Assembly (NCBI RefSeq): GCF_963675165.1
Contig: NC_087377.1
Span: forward strand, 1,389,501-1,453,500
DNA length: 64,000 nt
Origin: Halichondria panicea
Lineage: Eukaryota > Porifera > Demospongiae > Suberitida > Halichondriidae
Direction: 5' to 3'
Part shown: positions 23,030 through 56,842 of the stretch, piece by piece
How positions within the stretch are numbered: the stretch's first letter is position 1
How the letters are laid out: the number at the start of each line of letters is the position of its first letter
Translations under genes and position numbers: made by a program
The notes under the pieces: model-generated
The model's database searches: none
What the model saw: the letters and a program-made list of their open reading frames with translations, nothing else
What the model was told of the DNA's origin: nothing

Positions 23030-23245
23030 TAGCCTCGAGACCAGCCCTTCCTTATCTGAAAGAACGCCTGGTCAAGTTCCAATGTAGCACTTGTCCAGCT
23101 GAGTCAGCTTTTATAGCATCATAATGATATTCATGGGTAATACACCTTGGGCGGACCTTGTGCGGGCAATTACCGGTCCAACAAGTGCTACATTGGAAAT
23201 TGACCAGGCGTTCTTTCAGATAACAAACGGCTGGTCTCGAGGCTA
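23030..23245. mobile_element. 216-bp TAGCCTCGAG-family MITE with a perfect 9-bp duplication
   Basis: TAGCCTCGAGACCAGCC and GGCTGGTCTCGAGGCTA are inverted ends, with inner arms GTTCCAATGTAGCACTTG and CAAGTGCTACATTGGAAA. ACTCTAGAA occurs at both flanks (23021-23029, 23246-23254). Confidence 0.9.
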
Positions 23246-31888: not shown

Positions 31889-31940
31889 TAGCCTCGAGAC
31901 CAGGCCTTGTATATTTTAATCGCGGCCTGGATTCGAGGCT
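31889..31940. mobile_element. about 52-bp TAGCCTCGAG mini-MITE
   Basis: TAGCCTCGAGACCAGGCC is matched by the inverted GGCCTGGATTCGAGGCT. CTTTGT flanks both sides, a partly obscured duplication. Confidence 0.7.
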
Positions 31941-32128
31941 TTGTTACCACATGGCCAGTGGGTAAGGATCCTCAAACAAATATCACAACCAAACCAAACA
32001 AACAACAAAAGGGTCACTAAACTAGAAAGCTTGAACTGAAATAAATTCCCTGATATGCATTGGGGGAAATCCCCAAAACAAAATAATATGCATTCCAACT
32101 AAAGGTAAACAAAAACAAGTTAATTATT

Positions 32129-40228: not shown

Positions 40229-43200
40229 ATTAGCAGGCCACCCTCTATAATACAGCCAGGTTAATGGGCCCCAAAGTCTCCATAGCATGTGTTTGGACCT
40301 GTGTTAGCAGACCACCCTCTATAATACAGCCAGGTTAATGGTCCCCAAAGTCTCCATAGCATGTGTTTGGACCTGTGTTAGCAGGCCACCCTCTATAATA
40401 CAGCCAGGTTAATGGGCCCCAAAGTCTCCATAGCATGTGTTTGGACATGTGTTAGCAGACCACCCTCTATAATACAGCCAGGTTAATGGTCCCCAAAGTC
40501 TCCATAGCATGTGTTTGGACCTGTGTTAGCAGACCACCCTCTATAATACAGCCAGGTTAATGGGTCCCAAAGTCTCCATAGCATGTGTTTGGACCTGTGT
40601 TAGCAGGCCACCCTCTATAATACAGCCAGGTTAATGGGTCCCAAAGTCTCCATAGCATGTGTTTGGACCTGTGTTAGCAGACCACCCTCTATTATACAGC
40701 CAGGTTAATGGGTCCCAAAGTCTCCATAGCATGTGTTTGGACCTGTGTTAGCAGACCACCCTCTATAATACAGCCAGGTTAATGGTCCCAAGTCTCCATA
40801 GCATGTGTTTGGACCTGTGTTAGCAGGCCACCCTCTATAATACAGCCAGGTTAATGGGTCCCAAAGTCTCCATAGCATGTGTTTGGACCTATGTTAGCAG
40901 GCCACCCTCTATAATACAGCCAGGTTAATGGGTCCCAAAGTCTCCATAGCATGTGTTTGGACCTGTGTTAGCAGACCACCCTCTATAATACAGCCAGGTT
41001 AATGGGTCCCAAAGTCTCCATAGCATGTGTTTGGACCTGTGTTAGCAGGCCACCCTCTATAATACAGCCAGGTTAATGGGCCCCAAAGTCTCCATAGCAT
41101 GTGTTTGGACCTGTGTTAGCAGACCACCCTCTATAATACAGCCAGGTTAATGGTCCCCAAAGTCTCCATAGCATGTGTTTGGACCTGTGTTAGCAGACCA
41201 CCCTCTATAATACAGCCAGGTTAATGGGTCCCAAAGTCTCCATAGCATGTGTTTGGACCTGTGTTAGCAGGCCACCCTCTATAATACAGCCAGGTTAATG
41301 GGTCCCAAAGTCTCCATAGCATGTGTTTGGACCTGTGTTAGCAGACCACCCTCTATTATACAGCCAGGTTAATGGGTCCCAAAGTCTCCATAGCATGTGT
41401 TTGGACCTGTGTTAGCAGACCACCCTCTATAATACAGCCAGGTTAATGGTCCCAAGTCTCCATAGCATGTGTTTGGACCTGTGTTAGCAGGCCACCCTCT
41501 ATAATACAGCCAGGTTAATGGGTCCCAAAGTCTCCATAGCATGTGTTTGGACCTATGTTAGCAGGCCACCCTCTATAATACAGCCAGGTTAATGGGTCCC
41601 AAAGTCTCCATAGCATGTGTTTGGACCTGTGTTAGCAGACCACCCTCTATAATACAGCCAGGTTAATGGGTCCCAAAGTCTCCATAGCATGTGTTTGGAC
41701 CTGTGTTAGCAGGCCACCCTCTATAATACAGCCAGGTTAATGGGTCCCAAAGTCTCCATAGCATGTGTTTGGACCTGTGTTAGCAGACCACCCTCTATTA
41801 TACAGCCAGGTTAATGGGTCCCAAAGTCTCCATAGCATGTGTTTGGACCTGTGTTAGCAGACCACCCTCTATAATACAGCCAGGTTAATGGTCCCAAGTC
41901 TCCATAGCATGTGTTTGGACCTGTGTTAGCAGGCCACCCTCTATAATACAGCCAGGTTAATGGGTCCCAAAGTCTCCATAGCATGTGTTTGGACCTATGT
42001 TAGCAGGCCACCCTCTATAATACAGCCAGGTTAATGGGTCCCAAAGTCTCCATAGCATGTGTTTGGACCTATGTTAGCAGGCCACCCTCTATAATACAGC
42101 CAGGTTAATGGGTCCCAAAGTCTCCATAGCATGTGTTTGGACCTATGTTAGCAGGCCACCCTCTATAATACAGCCAGGTTAATGGGTCCCAAAGTCTCCA
42201 TAGCATGTGTTTGGACCTGTGTTAGCAGACCACCCTCTATTATACAGCCAGGTTAATGGGTCCCAAAGTCTCCATAGCATGTGTTTGGACCTGTGTTAGC
42301 AGGCCACCCTCTATAATACAGCCAGGTTAATGGGTCCCAAAGTCTCCATAGCATGTGTTTGGACCTGTGTTAGCAGACCACCCTCTATTATACAGCCAGG
42401 TTAATGGGTCCCAAAGTCTCCATAGCATGTGTTTGGACCTGTGTTAGCAGACCACCCTCTATAATACAGCCAGGTTAATGGTCCCAAGTCTCCATAGCAT
42501 GTGTTTGGACCTGTGTTAGCAGGCCACCCTCTATAATACAGCCAGGTTAATGGGTCCCAAAGTCTCCATAGCATGTGTTTGGACCTATGTTAGCAGGCCA
42601 CCCTCTATAATACAGCCAGGTTAATGGGTCCCAAAGTCTCCATAGCATGTGTTTGGACCTATGTTAGCAGGCCACCCTCTATAATACAGCCAGGTTAATG
42701 GGTCCCAAAGTCTCCATAGCATGTGTTTGGACCTATGTTAGCAGGCCACCCTCTATAATACAGCCAGGTTAATGGGTCCCAAAGTCTCCATAGCATGTGT
42801 TTGGACCTGTGTTAGCAGACCACCCTCTATTATACAGCCAGGTTAATGGGTCCCAAAGTCTCCATAGCATGTGTTTGGACCTGTGTTAGCAGACCACCCT
42901 CTATAATACAGCCAGGTTAATGGTCCCAAGTCTCCATAGCATGTGTTTGGACCTGTGTTAGCAGGCCACCCTCTATAATACAGCCAGGTTAATGGGCCCA
43001 AGTCTCCATAGCATGTGTTTGGACCTGTGTTAGCAGGCCACCCTCTATAATACAGCCAGGTTAATGGCCCCCAAAGTCTCCATAGCATGTGCTTGGACCT
43101 GTGTTAGCAGGCCACCCTCTATAATACAGCCAGGTTAATGGGCTCCAAAGTCTCCATAGCATGTGTTTGGACCTGTGTTAGCAGACCACCCTCTATATTA

Positions 43201-46079
43201 CAGCCAGGTTAATGGGTCCCAAAGTCTCCATAGCATGTGTTTGGACCTGTGTTAGCAGACCACCCTCTATTATACAGCCAGGTTAATGGGTCCCAAAGTC
43301 TCCATAGCATGTGTTTGGACCTGTGTTAGCAGACCACCCTCTATAATACAGCCAGGTTAATGGGTCCCAAAGTCTCCATAGCATGTGTTTGGACCTGTGT
43401 TAGCAGGCCACCCTCTATAATACAGCCAGGTTAATGGGTCCCAAAGTCTCCATAGCATGTGTTTGGACCTGTGTTAGCAGACCACCCTCTATTATACAGC
43501 CAGGTTAATGGGTCCCAAAGTCTCCATAGCATGTGTTTGGACCTGTGTTAGCAGACCACCCTCTATAATACAGCCAGGTTAATGGTCCCAAGTCTCCATA
43601 GCATGTGTTTGGACCTGTGTTAGCAGGCCACCCTCTATAATACAGCCAAGTTAATGGGTCCCAAAGTCTCCATAGCATGTGTTTGGACCTATGTTAGCAG
43701 GCCACCCTCTATAATACAGCCAGGTTAATGGGTCCCAAAGTCTCCATAGCATGTGTTTGGACCTATGTTAGCAGGCCACCCTCTATAATACAGCCAGGTT
43801 AATGGGTCCCAAAGTCTCCATAGCATGTGTTTGGACCTATGTTAGCAGGCCACCCTCTATAATACAGCCAGGTTAATGGGTCCCAAAGTCTCCATAGCAT
43901 GTGTTTGGACCTGTGTTAGCAGACCACCCTCTATTATACAGCCAGGTTAATGGGTCCCAAAGTCTCCATAGCATGTGTTTGGACCTGTGTTAGCAGACCA
44001 CCCTCTATAATACAGCCAGGTTAATGGTCCCAAGTCTCCATAGCATGTGTTTGGACCTGTGTTAGCAGGCCACCCTCTATAATACAGCCAGGTTAATGGG
44101 CCCAAGTCTCCATAGCATGTGTTTGGACCTGTGTTAGCAGGCCACCCTCTATAATACAGCCAGGTTAATGGCCCCCAAAGTCTCCATAGCATGTGCTTGG
44201 ACCTGTGTTAGCAGGCCACCCTCTATAATACAGCCAGGTTAATGGGCTCCAAAGTCTCCATAGCATGTGTTTGGACCTGTGTTAGCAGACCACCCTCTAT
44301 ATTACAGCCAGGTTAATGGGTCCCAAAGTCTCCATAGCATGTGTTTGGACCTGTGTTAGCAGACCACCCTCTATTATACAGCCAGGTTAATGGGTCCCAA
44401 AGTCTCCATAGCATGTGTTTGGACCTGTGTTAGCAGACCACCCTCTATAATACAGCCAGGTTAATGGTCCCAAGTCTCCATAGCATGTGTTTGGACCTGT
44501 GTTAGCAGGCCACCCTCTATAATACAGCCAGGTTAATGGGCCCAAGTCTCCATAGCATGTGTTTGGACCTGTGTTAGCAGGCCACCCTCTATAATACAGC
44601 CAGGTTAATGGCCCCCAAAGTCTCCATAGCATGTGCTTGGACCTGTGTTAGCAGGCCACCCTCTATAATACAGCCAGGTTAATGGGCTCCAAAGTCTCCA
44701 TAGCATGTGTTTGGACCTGTGTTAGCAGACCACCCTCTATATTACAGCCAGGTTAATGGGCCCCAAAGTCTCCATAGCATGTGTTTGGACCTGTGTTAGC
44801 AGACCACCCTCTATAATACAGCCAGGTTAATGTGCCCCAAAGTCTCCATAGCATGTGTTTGGACCTGTGTTAGCAGGCCACCCTCTATAATACAGCCAGG
44901 TTAATGGCCCCAAAGTCTCCATAGCATGTGTTTGGACCTGTGTTAGCAGGCCACCCTCTATAATACAGCCAGGTTAATGGGCCCCAAAGTCTCCATAGCA
45001 TGTGTTTGGACCTGTGTTAGCAGACCACCCTCTATAATACAGCCAGGTTAATGTGCCCCAAAGTCTCCATAGCATGTGTTTGGACCTGTGTTAGCAGACC
45101 ACCCTCTATATTACAGCCAGGTTAATGGGTCCCAAAGTCTCCATAGCATGTGTTTGGACCTGTGTTAGCAGACCACCCTCTATTATACAGCCAGGTTAAT
45201 GGGTCCCAAAGTCTCCATAGCATGTGTTTGGACCTGTGTTAGCAGACCACCCTCTATAATACAGCCAGGTTAATGGTCCCAAGTCTCCATAGCATGTGTT
45301 TGGACCTGTGTTAGCAGGCCACCCTCTATAATACAGCCAGGTTAATGGGCCCAAGTCTCCATAGCATGTGTTTGGACCTGTGTTAGCAGGCCACCCTCTA
45401 TAATACAGCCAGGTTAATGGCCCCCAAAGTCTCCATAGCATGTGCTTGGACCTGTGTTAGCAGGCCACCCTCTATAATACAGCCAGGTTAATGGGCTCCA
45501 AAGTCTCCATAGCATGTGTTTGGACCTGTGTTAGCAGACCACCCTCTATATTACAGCCAGGTTAATGGGCCCCAAAGTCTCCATAGCATGTGTTTGGACC
45601 TGTGTTAGCAGACCACCCTCTATAATACAGCCAGGTTAATGTGCCCCAAAGTCTCCATAGCATGTGTTTGGACCTGTGTTAGCAGGCCACCCTCTATAAT
45701 ACAGCCAGGTTAATGGCCCCAAAGTCTCCATAGCATGTGTTTGGACCTGTGTTAGCAGGCCACCCTCTATAATACAGCCAGGTTAATGGGCCCCAAAGTC
45801 TCCATAGCATGTGTTTGGACCTGTGTTAGCAGACCACCCTCTATATAATACAGCCAGGTTAATGTGCCCCAAAGTCTCCATAGCATGTGTTTGGACCTGT
45901 GTTAGCAGACCACCCTCTATAATACAGCCAGGTTAATGTGCCCCAAAGTCTCCATAGCATGTGTTTGGACCTGTGTTAGCAGGCCACCCTCTATAATACA
46001 GCCAGGTTAATGGCCCCAAAGTCTCCGTAGCATGTGTTTGGACCTGTGTTAGCAGACCACCCTCTATAATACAGCCACT
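40229..46079. repeat. 5.85-kb array of a 74-bp minisatellite with higher-order structure
   Basis: The unit is GGACCTGTGTTAGCAGGCCA, CCCTCTATAATACAGCC, AGGTTAATGGGTCCCAAAGT, CTCCATAGCATGTGTTT, about 79 copies, with variants (GACCA/GGCCA; TATTATACAG; TGGTCCCAAG, 72 bp). Blocks of several units recur: an identical run of about 246 bp starts at 42843, 43947, 44387 and 45196. It lies downstream of the kinase B exon at 46696, like the four-copy array in copy A. Confidence 0.95.
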
Positions 46080-46114
46080 GTTGGTCTACCCACCACTATA
46101 CATATACAGGGTAT

Positions 46115-46669
46115 TACGGTGGCCCTGAGTGCTACTCCTAGTTGATAGTTCAAACGCGTAGTTGGCAGTTGGAAGTTCATGACCTTTAAACTTTGCAACC
46201 TGTTTTTATGTGTAAGTTAAAATTATGATACTGGCACCAATAATAATTGCTAGATATCTAGCTGGCAGGCTAAGACGATAATTATATACACATCTAAGTA
46301 GGGAGGTCTAATCCCCATGCACCTATATTCCCGGTAGAGAGGGAGGGAGGGGCATTATAGAAACATGTTGTATGGCACTTAGATTCTATTGAGGCCGTTT
46401 GGTTAAAAGATTTGAGGCAGTGCAAAGATCTATATTATTATAACATAATTATTATGCTAACTGGCGTAGAAGATAATAGTCTTTGCTGGTCTCAGACGGC
46501 ACTATTAAACGTGTGTCCGCTATACAATGTACATTAAGTAGGGCTTGCCCCCATCAATGAAGGCTTAGAGAAACAGGTTTTGCAGATCTAGAATAATTCC
46601 TGGCATTAGTTCGTTGCGAAGTTTAAAGGTCACCAACTACCAACTAGGAGTAGCACTCGGGCCACCGTA
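46115..46669. mobile_element. 555-bp MITE with 6-bp target duplication
   Basis: TACGGTGGCCCTGAGTGCTA and the complement of the right end (TACGGTGGCCCGAGTGCTAC) match, and the inverted similarity continues to GACCTTTAAACTT. GGGTAT flanks both sides (46109-46114 and 46670-46675). Copy A has the empty site CAGGGTATACTAATAG near 11386. Confidence 0.9.
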
Positions 46670-46904
46670 GGGTATACTAATAGTAAGGTACTCACAAAGA
46701 CATTAGTGACATGGTTGGTGGTTCCTGTGATCCTGGACACCACCTCACACACTTTCCAGATACTGGGACGCAGCTCAGGGTCAGAGGTCAACAGGCAGCC
46801 TACAAGGGAGGAGGAGAACACATGTATCACACACACCTACACCCACACACACACACCTACACCCACACACACCCACACGGCAAGCATAAAACAAATGTGT
46901 CTTA

Positions 46905-48321
46905 TGTTATAGTTATAACACGGGCACGAGGGATGTATGGAATATATTGCACTGAAGCACGAGGGCGCCAGCCCCGAGGGCTGAGTGCAATATATGCCAT
47001 GCAGCTCGAGTGCACGTGTTATAACTAGTTTATATCCCGAGGGCATAGCAACATAACACTGTCCTAGTAACACAATAATTATAAACAGCACAAAAAAGAC
47101 AGAGACAACTCTAGACACAGCTCCATCTCTTCTCTCTTCTAGACACCAGTATCTGCAGCATATAAGATTGGCATGACCGACGAATGGCTTGACACAAAAT
47201 TGTTGGAGTTTCAACTGAAATCTGTAAAACAGCCCCACCCCACTTCTGGTGCTGCAAAACAGCCCCGCCCCACTTACTGCTGCAAAGAAACAGCCCCACC
47301 CCACTACTCAGTGAATACATGTATTAGCTGCTGGTCTACGCTCGGCCTCATAACCAAGCCAAGAAAGCTCGCTTCTACACTGCTGCAAAACAGCTCATGC
47401 CCCCAGCAAAAAGAGCCACTTCTAGTGCTATACGGTGAAGCAGAATTGACATGCATCACGATGTCGAGGACTAGGTCGATCTAGGAACACAGAATCTTCC
47501 ACAAAATGAATCTTGGACAATTTTAAAACCTGCATGGTTGCAAGAAGAAACTCCAGCAGTGCTGAACATTCATTCCTGCATGGCTGGACATACTTTGATA
47601 CTTGTTATTTCTCATGCGTATTAATTTAATTTTAATTTAATTGTCTAATTGCCAGAGGGGCGTTTTGCGGTCAGTGCAATATGACTTTCAGCAGTGCAAT
47701 ATGAAGCATATTGCACTTGGCAACAACGTAGCAACGGGATATAAGGGATAATTATTTATGTGATTAACTTTTAAACGACGCGATTTCAGTACAGGCCACA
47801 AATGGATATCACTGTATGATACAAGAGTATGCAGTGATTATGATAGCTGCTCACATAACAGCATTAGTATAAGTATCTATTACACATTTATTTCTGACTA
47901 CGACTATACACAACTATGGGATAGAGCTATTGAATGATACTTGATACTCTAAAATGGATGCTTTGTACAATAAATTATGTAACTAGTGAAATGCTTCCTC
48001 ACACACACAAACAGTGGAGCCACTCTTAATGACCTCAGCTGAAGAAAGTTCAACTGCAGGCTATGAGGTCCCAAATGAATAGTTTTTGTATACATGCAGC
48101 CAAAATTTTTTTCCCTAAACGTAATACAGTGAAACCTCTGTTAACAACCACCTCTGAATAAAGGCCAGTTGCTATATAACGGCCAGGCACCCAGGTCCCA
48201 AACGAACAGTTTATGTACAAAACAACCTCTCAACAAAGGCCACCTCTGTATAAAGGCCAAAACATTGTTCCCCAAAGGTGTCTGTTATAGAGGGGTTCCA
48301 TTATAGTTCAATTGTACATAC
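46905..48321. other. intronic stretch of kinase B with decayed repeats
   Basis: It contains an inverted-repeat segment at about 46905-47026 (GTTATAACACGGGCACGAGG ... GTGCACGTGTTATAAC) and TATATCCCGAGGGCATAGCAAC near 47031 matched in inverse by GCAACGGGATATA near 47732. There are three short copies of AACAGCCCCACCCCACT at 47232-47307, and a CCACCTCTGTATAAAGGCCA-type dispersed repeat at 48130-48290, also seen near 60722. Confidence 0.45.
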
Positions 48322-48686
48322 CTTGAGGTCACGATGTATGACGGGTTTTGTCCGATGGTGTAGCCTAGCAACGGCCTTAGCAACGTCAGAGAAGATATGC
48401 AACACTTCACGTTGTCTCAGTCGAGTGCCCGCTGATTCAGCAAATCTATCACCGAAGTACCTAATAGAATAAATAATAATAATAATATTAAAAGCTTAAT
48501 TTATCACTAATTAGCTACATGCAGACAGTGTTTGTGATTCTCACTACTGTACATGATCAATGGTACCACTCCATTAGTATGACTAAGCAATAGACTACCA
48601 TCATGCACGCAGGTACACTACCACCCACTCCACTCATCACACACCCACTCCATTAGTATGAGTAGGCAATGGAGGACCATACATTA

Positions 48687-49130
48687 TGCACCTATCAATG
48701 TGTCGCCCCACTCCCCCCAGGAGGGGTCGGGCTTATATGGGGATTTGACCTTACCTCAGGTCAAATTTCCCCTGATAGGGGAAGGATTCTGTGTTCAAAT
48801 CCCCCAGTCAACGGAGGATTTTTAAGCCCCAAGCAGTTGCACACATTAAAACAGGTTATACAAGCAGTCTTTACTACGCAAAGCCAGGTCAAATCCCCAA
48901 GTATGGGGCCAACATTTCAGGTTAAATTTCCCCGTATGTCCCGGGGGGGGGGGTAGTGGGGCAACACCAGAGGAGGTCCGACATGCGTGCACGAATCACT
49001 ATAAGTTCAGTGCATTGTGGTAATTGGGGTCACGTGATATGTCCAGGCCAAATGTACTAGCATTTGTAGTGATTCGTGCACGCATGTCGGACCGGGCCTC
49101 CTCTGGGGCAAAACATTGATGATAGGTGCA
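48687..49130. mobile_element. 444-bp Harbinger-like MITE
   Basis: TGCACCTATCAATG and CATTGATGATAGGTGCA form the ends; interior TCCGACATGCGTGCACGAAT has its own inverted copy. Flanks are TTA (48684-48686) and CTA (49131-49133). Copy A has the empty site CATACATTACAACAAAG near 13620. Confidence 0.85.
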
Positions 49131-49691
49131 CTACAACAAAGGGAGCTAGAGAGCTAGTCTATAGATAGAGTATCTGGGTCCACTCAATAAAATCTGACAC
49201 TGCGTACTCACCCTAGCATTGTCCAGCTCCCTCTGCAGACTAGCCACCATATCCACCACCAGCAGCAATCAGTCAGGATACCTTGAGACAGTCACTCTCT
49301 GCTAGCTCCATCTCTCTCTACACTGCTTGTAGCCTTGTGAGCATGGAGCCATCTCATGTTAGCAACTGGAGCTATATATTATAGAGTAGATCTGTTTCAA
49401 TGCTGCCTAGCTGTGAAGCGCTTAGTCTAGTCTATGGCAGAGTCTACAGCTAGCTAGGGTAGCTAGCTCAGTAGGCCGGTGTCATAAAATTTTGGGCCCC
49501 GGTGTCATAGGATAGAACCTCCGGGCGACAGTTTCTCCCCCGGAGCCTGCGGTCTTAGGACAATGCCTCCCCCCCGGTGGTTTTGTCCTAGGACAGAATC
49601 CCCGCCCCCAGGATATATCATCCGGGTACATGTACCCTGTCAAAACCTGTCAAAGCAGCTTTAGTATAATAAGCGTGCGCGTGCATGCGAA

Positions 49692-51076
49692 ATGTATAGA
49701 CTGTTAGCAATCAGAATGGCTACTCAACAAGAGTATGAGGACATACTGCTGTACAAGACTGCTGCCAGCAATGCTGGCCAGAAGAAATACAGAGACGGGC
49801 TTTCCACTAATGACAAGAGAAGTATAAGAGACAAAGCTCAAAGGTATGCTCTGCAGCAACAATGCTTATACCTGCCTGAGAAGGACAGCACTGGCATCCA
49901 TAGAATGAGAAGAGTTGTGGTGAAGCAAGAGGAGAAAAGCAGGATACTAAACATGTGCCACGATGGACTGGATGGAATGCATTTTGAGAGAGACAAGACC
50001 TATGGAAAGGTATATTTATCATCATATCTTATAAAGTATAATTATATCTGTTTCATGCATGTAGGTTGCTCAGGATTTCTACTGGAAAGGCCTACATGCT
50101 GACGTCATACAGCTCTGCAAGCACTGCGACTAATGCCAACGAACGAATCACCAACTGCAGAAGCCCAGAGCAGAACTACATCCCATCCCTGTAACAAAGG
50201 TCTGGTACAGAGTTGGTATTGACTTGGTAGGACCTGAAACAAGCTCTGGAAACAAGTACATTATCACGCTCTCAGACTATTTCTCTAAGTGGCCTGAGGC
50301 TGCCCCACTCCCATCAAAATCAGCAGAAGGTGTAGCAAAATTTCTGTTTGACACATTTTGCAGGCATGGGTGGCCAAAAGTGATTCAATCAGACCAAGGA
50401 AGAGAGTTTGTCAACGAAATCAATGTACACATGCAGCTGTGCAAATCTTCTTTGTTGAAGAATGACAGCACTGGATTGCCACTTCTCTGTTTAAGGGTGA
50501 ACTGTATTTGTACGACAGCTGCTTCAATGGAACGCTTTCCCCAAGTACTGAGCTCCAGATAGCACAAGTGTATAGCCCATTAATTCAATGCAATGGGCTG
50601 TTGATTTCTGTGGTGGCTCTCCAGCAGCAAGAGGGTGCTAACAACTGCGGACTATTTAGCATTGCTGCTGCATATCACGCTGCTATGAACGATAATGTGG
50701 ATTCTCTAGTGTTTGATGAGGCCAAAATGAGAGCACATATCATTAAGTGCTTTGAGAAGGGCAAACTCTCACGGTTCCCTCGCACAAAGAAAGCGATGCC
50801 CAAAAGACCAACACCACAAACCATTGCCATTACAATATACTGCATGTGCGAGAGACCGGACTCTTTTGAGGATATGGTCATGTGTGACAAATGTAGTGAG
50901 TGGTATCATAGCCTCGATTCAAGGCCGTATTTTAATCGGTCTGGAATCGAGGCTAGTGGTATCACTATCGCTGTGCCAAAATTCACAAAGAACCAGTAGG
51001 TAATTGGTTTTGTTCTGGTTGTATCACTTTATGATTTGTGCACTTTTGGTTATATTTATTGTACTTCTTTCTCTTG
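49692..51076 (+). pseudogene. Ginger-like integrase / Ulp1-like protease / PHD-finger protein, decayed
   Basis: Exon 49692-50009 ends in a GTATAT donor and joins 50065 onward. Domains in order: a His-Cys zinc-binding region (HDGLDGMHF ... QLCKHCD), with TAA at 50131 just before the final CQ; an integrase core with GIDLVGPE, SDYFSKWPEA and VIQSDQGREFVN, giving the first two acidic residues; then an abrupt change near 50425, so the expected third acidic residue is missing; then a Ulp1-like C-terminal part QQQEGANNCGLFSIAAAYH, where NCG is the expected catalytic Cys; then a PHD finger starting CMCERPDSFEDMVMCDKCSE. The PHD is cut by a 47-bp MITE (50909-50955), after which it resumes in another frame (CAKIHKEPVGNWFCSGC) and stops at TGA near 51076. 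The element cannot encode a complete transposase as read. Confidence 0.75.
50909..50955. mobile_element. 47-bp TAGCCTCGAT mini-MITE inside the PHD finger
   Basis: TAGCCTCGATTCAAGGCCG is matched by the inverted CGGTCTGGAATCGAGGCTA. GTGGTATCA is duplicated exactly at 50900-50908 and 50956-50964 (9 bp). Element plus duplication is 56 bp, so it shifts the frame. Confidence 0.95.
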
Positions 51077-51905
51077 CATTGTTGTATATATTGAGTATTG
51101 AATATTTGAGATCTATAACATAATAGATACAGCATCTAGTTAGGCTTTGTCTATGGCTGTTTACTTCGTAGCCTAGACTAGTCCTCTCAGATTACCTGTG
51201 GACTGACTTTCACCTGGGGTAGGAGCTTTTGTCCTAGGACAGAAACTCCGGGGGGAGGAAATATCCTAAGGACGGAACCCCCCCCCCGGAGCTCCTGTCC
51301 TGGGGGAGGCCGTGTCCTGTGACACCGGCCCCATGTTTAGGCCCCCCCCAGGCCTAGAATTTTAAAATTTTGGGCTAGTTTAGCTATTAGGTCTGGCCCC
51401 CAGACTAGTCAAAGAGACATAGGTAAGGTTAGCTCTATTAGTTGACAAAGCATCAAAGAGACTGCATGCATGCAAAGACTCTGTATCAAAGTAGCAAAAA
51501 TGTTTGCATTATTATTCTATCATGGAATTCAAAGTGAAGGAAGATTTACCTTTCAAGTTACTCATGCTTTACCTATAAGAGTTAAATGCTTTGATGCAGC
51601 TCTGCAATGTTGGATCTACCTGTAAGACAATCGATGTTGTTGCATAGCTATCGCCATATTTGCAATTTCGTGCTTACTTTCTTAGTCAAATTTCAGGACA
51701 AAAAAGTATAAAACACACAATTTCAGTGCAAAGACAACAATTCATATCTTCCTCCTATGTTTTCCTATATATACATAGAAGATGTAAATTGTTGTGGGAA
51801 TGCTCTAATAGCATCACTGGCTCAGCTCTCAAGCAATGTGGAATCACAGATAGAAGTCAAGAGAGAAACTGTTGTATCATGGTGGAATCACAATAGCAGT
51901 TTCCT

Positions 51906-52959
51906 TTTTTTTTTTTATAAAAGAGCAGATTCACAGAGGCTGACTTTGTTTTCAAATTGGGATTGTGGGTGGAGCTAAATCTACACATAGGGGAGGCGCT
52001 GCAATCAAAATAAATTTGGTAAAGGTCGACACAGTAACACTTAAAAGTGTCTTTTCATTTTCATTACACCAACCATTGTAAAATTAATGTTCAATAATGT
52101 TTGTATGTTCATTATCATAATTATTGTTCAGTTTGCAGTGCTCTTGCACACCAGAGAGAGAGAGAGAGAGTCCTCCCTCCATGCAGAGAGATAGTCCTCC
52201 CTCCATGCAGAGAGAGAGTCCTCCCTCCATGCAGTGTGACAGCCAGCACCGTCGCGAGTATGTGGCACTGCATCGCTGGCCCCCCACCCATCCGCCCATG
52301 GGACCATCTGGGATATCTGTAGCAAATGGTTGTGATATCTCAAATTGAATACAGTTAAGACAGCAATAACCAACCTAGAGGCTGTCCCAGTCCAGGTTAT
52401 TAGAAGGTAGTCTGGCCACGAGACTAATTAGTTACATCCAGGTGGTTAGAATTTGCTATCCAATGGAGATTCTCATGTAAGAGTTGCTGTTGCCTACAGG
52501 GACAAAGCATCGTGTACATACATGTAGGGTATCATACGCACACCCACCTAACATGAGGGTGTGGCCATCATGTGGGTGTGGCCACAGTTGTAGTAGGTGT
52601 GGTCTGACCACTCCCCCTCCAGAGAACCAGTAGATCGAGTTCATTTTTCATTTACAGTATGACAAACGAAAAGGAAATGAAAAATGATGGGGCGCCCCAA
52701 AAGTATGATTGTGATGAGTTATGTATGATGGTTCATTGCAGCAGCTATATAGCTGTGGGTACAAGGGAGAGGGGTTAGCAACATGCATCATATATACACA
52801 AAGGGACAATAAGAAGTTAGCAACTGCTGCCTCCTACAGATCAAGACACACAGCTATCTATAAGGAAGGACAGATTACATGCACTCACTCGTGGTTGAGG
52901 AGGAGGACATTGTTGCTTATTCCATCAGTGTTTGTGGGATTTGGTGATGTACATCAGTA
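51906..52959. other. no gene recognised; short GA and CTCCCTCCATGCA repeats
   Basis: A (GA)n tract and three copies of AGTCCTCCCTCCATGCAG (52170-52232). The remainder is unremarkable AT-rich DNA with no supported exon. Confidence 0.45.
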
Positions 52960-54860
52960 GATATATGTTCCATGCTTGACTTCAGTATGTGACGTGGTGG
53001 ATACTCCCTCCAGTGCAGTAGGTCCCCCGGAGCCAGAACCATGTAGTGTGAAGGGTAGGGTTAGGACACATACGTAGTACTACCTCATACATGGAATTAC
53101 ACTACACAAGGCTTGAACTGTATAATTATATATAAAAGCTTATAATTATTTAGAATTAATTATCAGACCACCACAACCGATACGTAGATGTCACCAGCAG
53201 TCCCTCTACTGTCAGATGTAATATGGAGTTTTTTCTCTATATAGAAATTCCGCCAGTTGTCATCCAGAGCTAGAACCATGTAGTGGGAGAAATAGATTAT
53301 TAGGGGGTACATGCATGCATGGGGTTAGGTACTCATGTCATGTAACACACAAGGCTTGTTACTGTATAAGGCTCAAATAAGAATAATTGTCAGACCATAA
53401 CCGATATAATTATGTAGATTCTTGATAGTGAAATGCCAGTGTGTCGAATAAAAACGAGTTCTTTCTAGAGATTCTGCCAGTTGGTCCCCAAGAGCCAGCT
53501 AGAACTCTATAATGCATGTATGACACCAGGGGTAGAGGTTAGGACACAGAGCACACACATGTACACAAGGCTTGCTACGTAACTAGCTGTGTATAAGGCT
53601 CAATATTATTTTAAACTTGTTAGACCACAACCGATATGTAGATTCTTGTTTGAAATGCTGTCGATCCAGTGTCGGATATAAACGAGTCTTTTATAGAAGT
53701 TCCGCCAGTTGTGTCATCCAGAGCTAGAACCATGTAGTGGGAGAAATAGATTATTAGAGGGTACATGCATGCATGGGGTTAGGTACTCATGTCATGTAAC
53801 ACACAAGGCTTGTTACTGTATAAGGCTCAAATAAGAATAATTATTATTTAGAATAATTGTCAGACCACCACAAGCGACATGTAGATTCTTGATAGTGAAA
53901 TGCCACAAGTAGTTCTTCCAGCGTGTCGAATAAACGAGTCTTTCTAGAAATTCTGCCGGTTGGTCCTCCAGAGCTAGAACCATGTAGTGGGAGAATTTGG
54001 TTAGAATAGGATTATAGGAAGTATACTATAGGTACGTCTGAAGCACACAATACATGCAGCTGGTGAGTGGTTCTACAGGGATGCAAGGTTTGAAAGAGAC
54101 AGACTATAGTAAAGCAGTTGGTTGTTGGGTATAGGACACATCAGTAGTAATCATACATGTACGAATATACACAAGGCTTGATAGAATGGTGTAAGGCTCA
54201 ATATATTAATCGTTAGACCACAACCGATATATAGGTTCTCGATATGCTGCCAGTATCCAGTGTGTCGGACATAAAAGAGTCTTTTCTATACAAATTCCGC
54301 CAGTTGGTCCCCTCCAGAGCAAGAACCATGTAGTGTAAGAAATAGATTAGGACTCATCAATACAGTACCAGGAGTGCCTGATAGTACTCATACATGCTAA
54401 TATACCAGGCTTGCTTGATAACTATCTAATGCCAAACTACAACCCATAATTATAATAATCATGTAGATTCTTGAAATGTCACCATCTGCAGTGCAGTGTG
54501 TCAGATCTGCCAGTTGGTCCCCCAGAGCAAGAACTATGCAGTGCGAGAAATAGATTATTAGGGGGTAGACATTAGTATAGACACGATTAAAGGCTTGATA
54601 TACAGTACGTATAAGGCTCGTCATAACTATCAGACCACAACCAGTCTGTGCGTGAGTACCACCATCTGCAGTGTTGATAGCCAGTGTCAGTGTCAGTGAT
54701 GTTAGTAGAAATGTTCCAGACTTGACTTCATAAGTAGTGGATAGACTTCAGTACTTCATATAGTTCAGATAGACTTCATTAGTTCACAATAGTTCAGTAG
54801 TGGATAGACTTGACTTCAATATTCCACCCAGTGGTCTCGTGTTGTCAGATCTGTAGAAAT
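52960..54860. repeat. degenerate tandem repeat, about 7-8 units of roughly 230 bp
   Basis: Each unit carries ACCACAACCGATATGTAGAT, a GAGTC/TTTCTAGAAATTC segment, GCCAGTTGGTCC, AGAGCTAGAACCATGTAGTG and AAATAGATTATTAGG, with many indels. Confidence 0.8.
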
Positions 54861-54897
54861 AAATCAGCATGTATTATTGAAAAGTTGCACAAGACAG

Positions 54898-55848
<951 letters not shown>

Positions 55849-56842
55849 TGTCATAAAATTTTGGGCCCCCCGGCCTAGAATTTTAAAACTTTGGATCCCC
55901 GGGCCTAAAATGTTAACAGTTTAGGCCCCCCAGGGGGTCCAAACTGTTAACATTCTAGGCCCCCCTCTTCTCAGCTATCCTTTTCTGCACGATAGAACAA
56001 AGTCAAAGAGATAATTATTATAATATGGTAAGGTTAGCTCTATTAGTTGACAAAGCATCAAAGAGACGCATGCATGCAAAGACTCTGTATCAAAGTAGCA
56101 AAAATGTTTGCATTATTATTCTATCATGGAATTCAAAGTGAAGGAAGATTTACCTTTCAAGTTACTCATGCTTTACCTATAAGAGTTAAATGCTTTGATG
56201 CAGCTTGGATCTGCCTGTAAGACAATCAATGTTGTTGCATAGCTATCGCCATATTTGCAACTTCGTGCTTGCTTACTTTCTTAGTCAAATTTCAGGACAA
56301 AAAAATATAAAACACACAATTTCAGTGCAAAGACAACAATTCATATCTTCCTCCATGTTACATAGAAGATGTAAATTGTTGTGGGGATGCTCCAATAGCA
56401 TCACTGGCTCAGCTCTCAAGTAATGTGGAATCACAGATAGAAGTCAAGAGAGAAACTGTTGTATCATGGTGGAATCACAATAGCAGTTTCCTTTCGGGAC
56501 AAGGGTAATAATTATTGGAAAGTCCGGACCAATTCGGGACAGTTGGCACCTATGTGCTTCGTGCTGCATGAGGCCTGATTCATAGAATGACATGGTTCAG
56601 TGTGATGGCTGTGAGACCAGTGGTATACTACTGTACATGCATGAAACGTGTGTGTGTGTGAGGATCGAGAGCTGCATTCAGTAACTGGCACTGCATAAAC
56701 TGTGAAGACCATAGAAGACTGTATTGGTGTATTTTGAGAATGCACTGTCACATAATGTTACCGCTGTTGCGCTGGGGGCCTAAAATGTTAAAATTCTAGG
56801 CCCGGGGGGGCCCAATCTCATGGGGCCTAAAATTTTATGACA
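55849..56842 (+). mobile_element. Ginger-like non-autonomous element, 994 bp
   Basis: The ends TGTCATAAAATTTTGGGCC and GGCCTAAAATTTTATGACA are flanked by CCGG on both sides (55845-55848, 56843-56846). The interior 56000-56490 matches 51400-51905. Near the right end a PHD-like remnant reads NDMVQCDGC then NWHCINCED, so it is a deletion derivative of a PHD-encoding element. Confidence 0.85.

Follow-up and report, generated by a model that had tools for sequence, protein, structure and literature searches.

MITEs are short, non-coding elements with inverted ends, target site duplications and high copy number, generally of 50-800 bp according to the description of MITE Tracker, where this is the default range of a search tool and not a mechanistic one (PMC6171319). 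Duplications of 8-11 bp are described for Mutator-like (MULE) elements (PMC6446971), and for the animal MULE Muta1 of Aedes aegypti, duplications of 8 or 9 bp with no apparent sequence preference are reported (PMC5225508). Rehavkus, a MULE-related element, combines a PHD finger, a minisatellite and a 9-bp duplication in the account of PMC6446971. Ginger1 transposons are described as having CCGG duplications, TGTNR ends and a Gypsy-like integrase, with Ulp1 and PHD in Hydra Ginger1-9_HM (PMC2836005). A Ulp1 or OTU domain at the C-terminus, joined in some members by PHD, is a further feature of Ginger1. The excised sequences (IESs) of Paramecium are transposon-linked, reach down to 26 bp and show a 10-bp periodicity (PMC3464196).

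Here we analyse a 47-bp element in a 64,000-nucleotide stretch of the Halichondria panicea genome (the window; C1:1389501-1453500), together with its relatives in the whole assembly (131,455,214 bases, 39 contigs). Like the Muta1 derivatives described in PMC5225508, which are Mutator/MULE MITEs, these elements have inverted ends, 8-9-bp duplications and no strong target preference. However, the ends of Muta1 measure 145 bp and the tested construct Muta1AR 500 bp, whereas the elements here are 39-58 bp whole. They share the general features of usual MITEs listed above (PMC6171319), but the 47- and 39-bp copies lie under the 50-bp default floor; the 58-bp sister form falls inside the conventional range. 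Like Paramecium IESs they are linked to transposons and far below the persistence length of DNA (PMC3464196). In contrast to IESs, which are excised by the domesticated PiggyMac and decay after insertion, many sites here carry near-identical copies flanked by 9-bp duplications. In the literature covered by our search, which included the relevant parts of PMC5225508, PMC6171319, PMC12628747 and PMC1562414, no MITE under 50 bp with a 9-bp duplication was found, a result that leaves its absence unproven.

A 47-bp element with an exact 9-bp duplication

The insertion consists of the following features.

50909-50955, unstranded: 47-bp palindromic non-autonomous element (MITE) with ends TAGCCTCGATTC / GAATCGAGGCTA
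50900-50908, unstranded: left copy of the 9-bp target site duplication GTGGTATCA
50956-50964, unstranded: right copy of the 9-bp target site duplication GTGGTATCA

Read directly from the window, the element is TAGCCTCGATTCAAGGCCGTATTTTAATCGGTCTGGAATCGAGGCTA, an imperfect palindrome between two identical 9-mers, which confirms the initial annotation of a 47-bp MITE with an exact 9-bp duplication. A repeat search returned arms of 19 bases (50909-50927 and 50937-50955) with 89% complementarity, the terminal inverted repeats of a MITE. Folded as single-stranded DNA, the element formed one hairpin of -16.8 kcal/mol (z -7.16), equalled by none of 200 shuffles. When 56 bp (the element and one repeat) were omitted, the sequence read on in a single frame as had been claimed, with the translation ...CDKCSEWYHYRCAKIHKEPVGNWFCSGC; the joined reading across the insertion site is CSEWYHYRCAKIHKEPVGNWFCSGC. 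With the element present the frame is shifted and runs into a stop codon at 50997-50999. We conclude, with a probability of about 0.9, that the 47-bp element arose by transposition, as a MITE reduced to both terminal inverted repeats that belongs to a genome-wide family.

The initial annotation further held that the frame fixes the element boundaries to the base. We searched the whole genome for the predicted empty site, a 27-base join of the flanks, allowing up to three mismatches. Of 38 matches, 18 were exact, 16 had one mismatch, one (on C4) was divergent with three mismatches and three were filled; the reversed-pattern control gave 0. Because empty sites exist, the boundary argument is good to the base. 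The three filled places look like copies of one insertion. The window copy and that at C1:2459322 are 99.8% identical across 10,002 aligned bases, a 10-kb segmental duplication, and the filled copy at C1:13119147 has the same duplication as the window and a host flank that is 98.6% identical across 291 bases. Given this segmental duplication and common host flank, the copies at C1:2459322 and C1:13119147 are not independent insertions.

The duplicated segment comprises at least 10 kb (45887-55874 of the window) and recurs at C1:2454300-2464299 with 99.8% identity, ~1 Mb away on the same contig.

The interrupted frame lies in a probable Ginger1-like transposon

The sequence around the insertion carries the features below.

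49503-51324, + strand: Ginger1-like transposon copy, probable extent, with TGTCA ends and internal damage; boundaries probable
49499-49502, unstranded: left CCGG copy of the 4-bp duplication flanking the Ginger1-like element
51325-51328, unstranded: right CCGG copy of the same 4-bp duplication
50134-50562, + strand: open frame that contains an integrase core (rve at 33.9 bits; cut-off 32.6)
50466-50999, + strand: C-terminal open frame, matching the start of a PHD finger at 18 bits (below the cut-off of 24) and interrupted by the 47-bp element

The insertion had been placed in a PHD finger. Its carrier is a transposon, probably Ginger1-like, and not an evident host gene, the putative PHD finger being the tail of this mobile element. 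In common with Ginger1 as described in PMC2836005, the carrier has CCGG duplications, TGTNR ends and a Gypsy-like integrase as transposase (rve above its cut-off), and possibly a PHD finger. Unlike Ginger1, the copy here is short and damaged, has no Pfam match to Ulp1 and matches PHD below the cut-off. An Ulp1-like stretch in the C-terminal frame is a reading by eye, and H2C2 scored 18.9 bits, below its cut-off. The host open reading frame had no match in the phage collection.

The ends of the Ginger1-like copy, TGTCATAGGAT / TGTCACAGGAC, pair at 15 of their first 20 bases. Between 46000 and 54000, a search for 4-bp duplications next to TGTNR ends 1-7 kb apart gave a single pair with at most 7 mismatches in 20, the CCGG-flanked 49503-51324. 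In the whole window this was the sole pair with at most 5 mismatches in 20 among 174 equal-flank pairs, against an expectation of ~0.05 derived from 14 of 49,121 pairs. CCGG also flanks a rival pair, 49480/56842, whose ends differ at 1 of 20 bases. Since its end also matches 55849, it looks like the ends of another repeat, but because this pair exists the host boundaries are probable, not certain.

Positions 55849-56842 form a second CCGG-flanked pair of TGTNR ends, ~1 kb apart with 1 mismatch in 20. An end of this type also lies at 49480, and the pair perhaps represents another Ginger1-like non-autonomous family.

Family members share ends and 9-bp duplications

The genome contains the 12-base end TAGCCTCGATTC 1335+1297 times, 2,632 in all, compared with 0+2 for its reversed control. 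The sister end TAGCCTCGAGACC occurs 450+471 times (control 0), and TAGCCTCGA was found 7 times in the window where 0.12 are expected. The window contains these related elements.

23030-23245, unstranded: related 216-bp element with TAGCCTCGAGACC ends and an exact 9-bp duplication, ACTCTAGAA
13791-13840, unstranded: related 50-bp element with TAGCCTCGAGACC ends; duplication TTCGCGCTC/CTCGCGCTC, one mismatch
31889-31941, unstranded: decayed related element with one altered end, AAGCCTCGAATC, and no clear duplication

The proposed test of the insertion, that other copies carry matching duplications, was run on 23 neighbouring plus/minus pairs less than 2 kb apart, picked by eye among the first 100 listed TAGCCTCGATTC places (C1 up to 5.09 Mb); wider pairs were dropped. 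Small members measured 39, 47 (two), 51, 52, 58 (five), 59 (two), 65, 84 and 126 bp, and large ones 355, 541, 602, 603, 606, 871, 1355 and 1861 bp. Exact 9-bp duplications flanked 16 of the 23, two had one mismatch, the 52-bp L020 had an 8-bp repeat (TACTATAC) instead, and four (L002, L016, L022 and L025) had none. In shifted-flank comparisons of the same pairs 0 of 230 reached even one mismatch, and the claim withstood the test. The pairs collapse to 19 sites, 12 of them exact, with GGGGGGTGC seen three times and GTTAAAGGT and GTGGTATCA twice each.

A wider scan of 58 sources (353,883 bases), in which TAGNCTC ends were allowed, yielded 44 rows with exact 9-bp duplications, including two composites of neighbours and some copies of one host site; shifted comparisons gave 0 in 4 x 6265. 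Across many sites the target site duplication keeps a constant length, a further property of MITEs. At 41 distinct sites the duplicated 9-mers showed a weak G at position 1 and a weak C at position 9 (0.49 each).

The wider inverted pairs C1:4867594-4875333 (7.7 kb) and C1:1659262-1674123 (14.8 kb) have ends without a 9-bp duplication. Neither was retained as a candidate autonomous element. The flanks of the latter are reverse-complementary, which indicates one element in an inverted repeat: L066 and L067 (C1:1659262 and 1674123) are the same element end, 14.8 kb apart in an inverted segmental repeat.

L006, L008, L009 and L010 have the same duplication, GGGGGGTGC, the element having spread inside another repeat, and L008 (285 bp) holds a further insertion. 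Between 1.40 and 2.38 Mb of C1 there are eight 50-bp TAGCCTCGAGACC pairs in 1 Mb, with none of that size elsewhere among the places listed to 5.87 Mb; this is likely a segmental-duplication cluster.

The 47-bp form recurs at distinct sites and probably moves at that size

Within three mismatches, the 47-mer was found at 16 places in the whole genome (control 0), all of which were read: the window with L014, and fourteen others. They represent 14 distinct sites. Exact 9-bp duplications were present at 12 of these, or 13 counting L038, which has CGGTAAAGC on both sides and one extra base at its left end; L032 had no duplication. The flanks of different sites were unrelated at E 1e-5, the exceptions being L039 and L042, which have a 107-base stretch in common but on opposite sides, and L038 and L041, which match over 41 bases.

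The 58-mer, in which two ends stand back to back, was found at 83 places (copies not collapsed; control 0). Five places were read. The duplication is exact at L063 and at L011 and L013, which represent a single site; it has one mismatch at L018 and is absent at L016. The 39-mer occurred at four places (control 0), with exact duplications at L019 and L046, one mismatch at L045 and none at L047. Still other relatives measure 41 bp, 36 bp (L052, in a stack) and, in an array, 23 bp. The initial annotation ranked the insertion among the smallest credible ones; this has to be moderated, as 47 bp is not the family minimum. The counts of the 47-mer and 58-mer nevertheless reveal the homogeneous size classes at high copy number that are typical of MITEs.

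Internal deletion in a longer element probably gave rise to the short forms. L024, one of the ~602-bp type, starts with TAGCCTCGATTCCAGGCCG and finishes with CCAGGCCGTATTTTAATCGGCCTGGAATCGAGGCTA. It has an 8-bp direct repeat, CCAGGCCG, and a deletion between the two copies of this repeat would leave exactly 47 bp; a loss of 11 bp would turn the 58-mer into the same 47-bp form. The deletion may have recurred, since the fourteen 47-bp sites carry, by reading, five left/right end-haplotypes. At least the 58-bp form, and probably the 47-bp form too, would then have moved as such, with ~12-16 bp per end sufficing.

Movement at 47 bp is probable, although the same products could also be formed after landing. 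An element of 58 bp or ~602 bp would have inserted and been cut to 47 bp in place, by slippage across the palindrome or the CCAGGCCG repeat, and the tiny forms would be decay products, immobile at that size, comparable to Paramecium IESs in that these too decay once inserted. Several observations are consistent with such shrinkage: the 47-bp junction is exactly that which the repeat deletion in L024 would leave, the five end-haplotypes are as compatible with repeated deletion as with a single jumping source, three internal sequences occur among the four 39-bp copies, and the sizes 51, 52, 65 and 84 bp each appear singly in the 23-pair sample. We nevertheless regard it as the less likely course, as an identical 47-bp junction recurs at 14 distinct sites and an identical 58-bp junction at 83 places, which favours movement at small size. 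Furthermore, the 47-bp sites L041 and L042 share the same GCATTTT variant yet differ in their duplications. Very short substrates are not impossible for machines derived from transposases, because Paramecium sequences of 26 bp are described (PMC3464196).

The orientation of the 47-bp copies is uneven, 14 of 16 (12 of 14 distinct sites) lying the same way on their contigs, which may be chance.

Candidates for the mobilising transposase

Insertion most likely proceeded by a staggered 9-bp cut into the probable Ginger1-like transposon, which was later copied with its insert. Such a cut together with end recognition fits a DDE transposase. We favour a Mutator-like (MULE) enzyme as the one that mobilises the family, because of the 9-bp duplication, a length within the 8-11 bp of MULEs, and because MULE genes are present, with 31 MULE-domain matches in the genome.

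No autonomous element with TAGCCTCGA ends was found at the 8 of 31 MULE loci that were read (L029, L030 and L048-L053), two of which (L030 and L049) were represented by stretches too short to exclude TAGCC ends. Nor could such ends be shown in the stretches beside two relatives. Among the best 40 of 815 and of 748 candidates for 602-bp-type ends, none lay within 10 kb of a MULE match when the lists were compared by eye. Where MULE ends were defined, L052 had CGCTGTGACTATTCT and a duplication of 9 bp, and L053/L054 had GGGATTGACTAAG and a duplication of 10 bp.

These results leave some room for another DDE transposase that makes 9-bp duplications and is not Mutator-like: among the MULEs examined none was found to be TAGCC-ended, and both MULE families with defined ends differ from the family studied here. 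Against this stands the span of MULE duplications (PMC6446971), within which 9 bp falls, as well as Muta1, an animal MULE with duplications of matching length and no apparent sequence preference (PMC5225508). We therefore think a non-MULE enzyme the less probable and retain the Mutator-like enzyme as the working candidate.

The segment C1:11418385-11426235 was considered as the autonomous element, because it contains a MULE between TAGCC-type ends and has a 9-bp duplication (CATTTGCGA). It was rejected when two relatives of the inner MULE were compared and the ends of that MULE read, as it is nested and has its own GGGATTGAC ends and a 10-bp duplication. The segment (L054+L053) is a nest of three levels, in which the TAGCC-ended element with CATTTGCGA holds the 4.8-kb MULE with its 10-bp duplication; within the left end of the TAGCC-ended element is a TAGACTCGCC-ended element with a 9-bp duplication of its own, CCTCGATCC.

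Two further MULE genes, L029 (2245-6001) and L050 (1675-5501), have transposase open reading frames of ~800 amino acids with a C-terminal zinc finger, followed by a minisatellite of 9-bp or 20-80-bp units. They resemble Rehavkus in this zinc finger, a PHD finger by eye, and in the minisatellite behind it. Unlike Rehavkus, Pfam listed no PHD at E 0.01 in either gene, and no TAGCC ends were found around them (L029+L058, L050+L059).

Elements stack on one 9-bp target

Junctions of the form CGAGGCTA-N9-TAGCCTCG, the mark of two elements sharing one 9-mer, occur at 38 places in the genome with 31 different 9-mers (control 0). The pattern is its own reverse complement, and forward and reverse counts refer to the same places. 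Six junctions were read (L052, L060, L061, two in L062, and L063), and the outer 9-base copies were exact except in L063, whose leftmost copy is visible over seven bases, one of which differs.

In several cases the stacked elements differ. L039 has the order ACAAAAAGC-[65 bp]-ACAAAAAGC-[47 bp]-ACAAAAAGC and L052 the order GCAACTTCC-[57]-GCAACTTCC-[36]-GCAACTTCC, each with two different elements, and in L063 elements of 98 and 58 bp are stacked at CATGAGTAT. The 216-bp element of the window (23030-23245) is alone at ACTCTAGAA, while an additional element of 41 bp is stacked there in the paralogues L060 and L061. L062 has elements of 40, 23 and 23 bp at GTAGTACGG, the 23-mer being TAGCCTCGATTGAATCGAGGCTA, two fused ends. 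Because slippage of a 32-bp unit could have doubled the 23-mer, L062 is no proof of jumping at 23 bp. Spacings of 4-15 other than 9 were empty in the sequence examined, except for a single match at 14, which involved another end; of the four spacing-9 cases in this comparison, two (L060 and L061) had been chosen because of the pattern.

Repeated insertion into one duplicated site is already described as a route to tandem arrays (PMC12628747), and stacking as such therefore has a precedent; what stands out here is how frequent and exact it is. Stacks built on a single 9-bp target provide a natural record of repeated site use, and bear on how the ends of transposons draw in later insertions and give rise to satellite-like arrays.

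Implications for minimal transposons

A chance palindrome or assembly artefact can be dismissed as an explanation of the 47-bp element, as the controls for the window, the 12-base end, the 47-mer, the empty site, the 58-mer and the shifted flanks were zero or near zero.

The persistence length of DNA is ~150 bp, and elements of 39-58 bp are so short that they would be far too stiff to loop as ordinary duplex. Tentatively, and with less confidence than in movement at 47 bp by itself, we propose that elements of 39-58 bp, consisting of two ends of 12-16 bp, may move as units, perhaps via a cruciform or hairpin. The same transposase would target resident ends, stacking element, 9 bp and element into arrays such as that of 40+23+23 bp. 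A cruciform would, as a conjecture, set both ends side by side.

If the 39-58-bp elements are mobile as such, they place a lower bound on what a cut-and-paste transposase needs, and imply a two-ended complex that handles DNA well under the persistence length. With many similar tiny elements in this genome, transposons that are nearly ends only seem able to spread. Insertions of less than 50 bp would be missed by a common MITE finder at its 50-bp default, also in coding sequence, where 56 bp shift the frame.

Elsewhere in the window, positions 40289-46004 are occupied by a large tandem repeat array, in which a 191-base query gave BLAST matches stepwise at ~74 bases.
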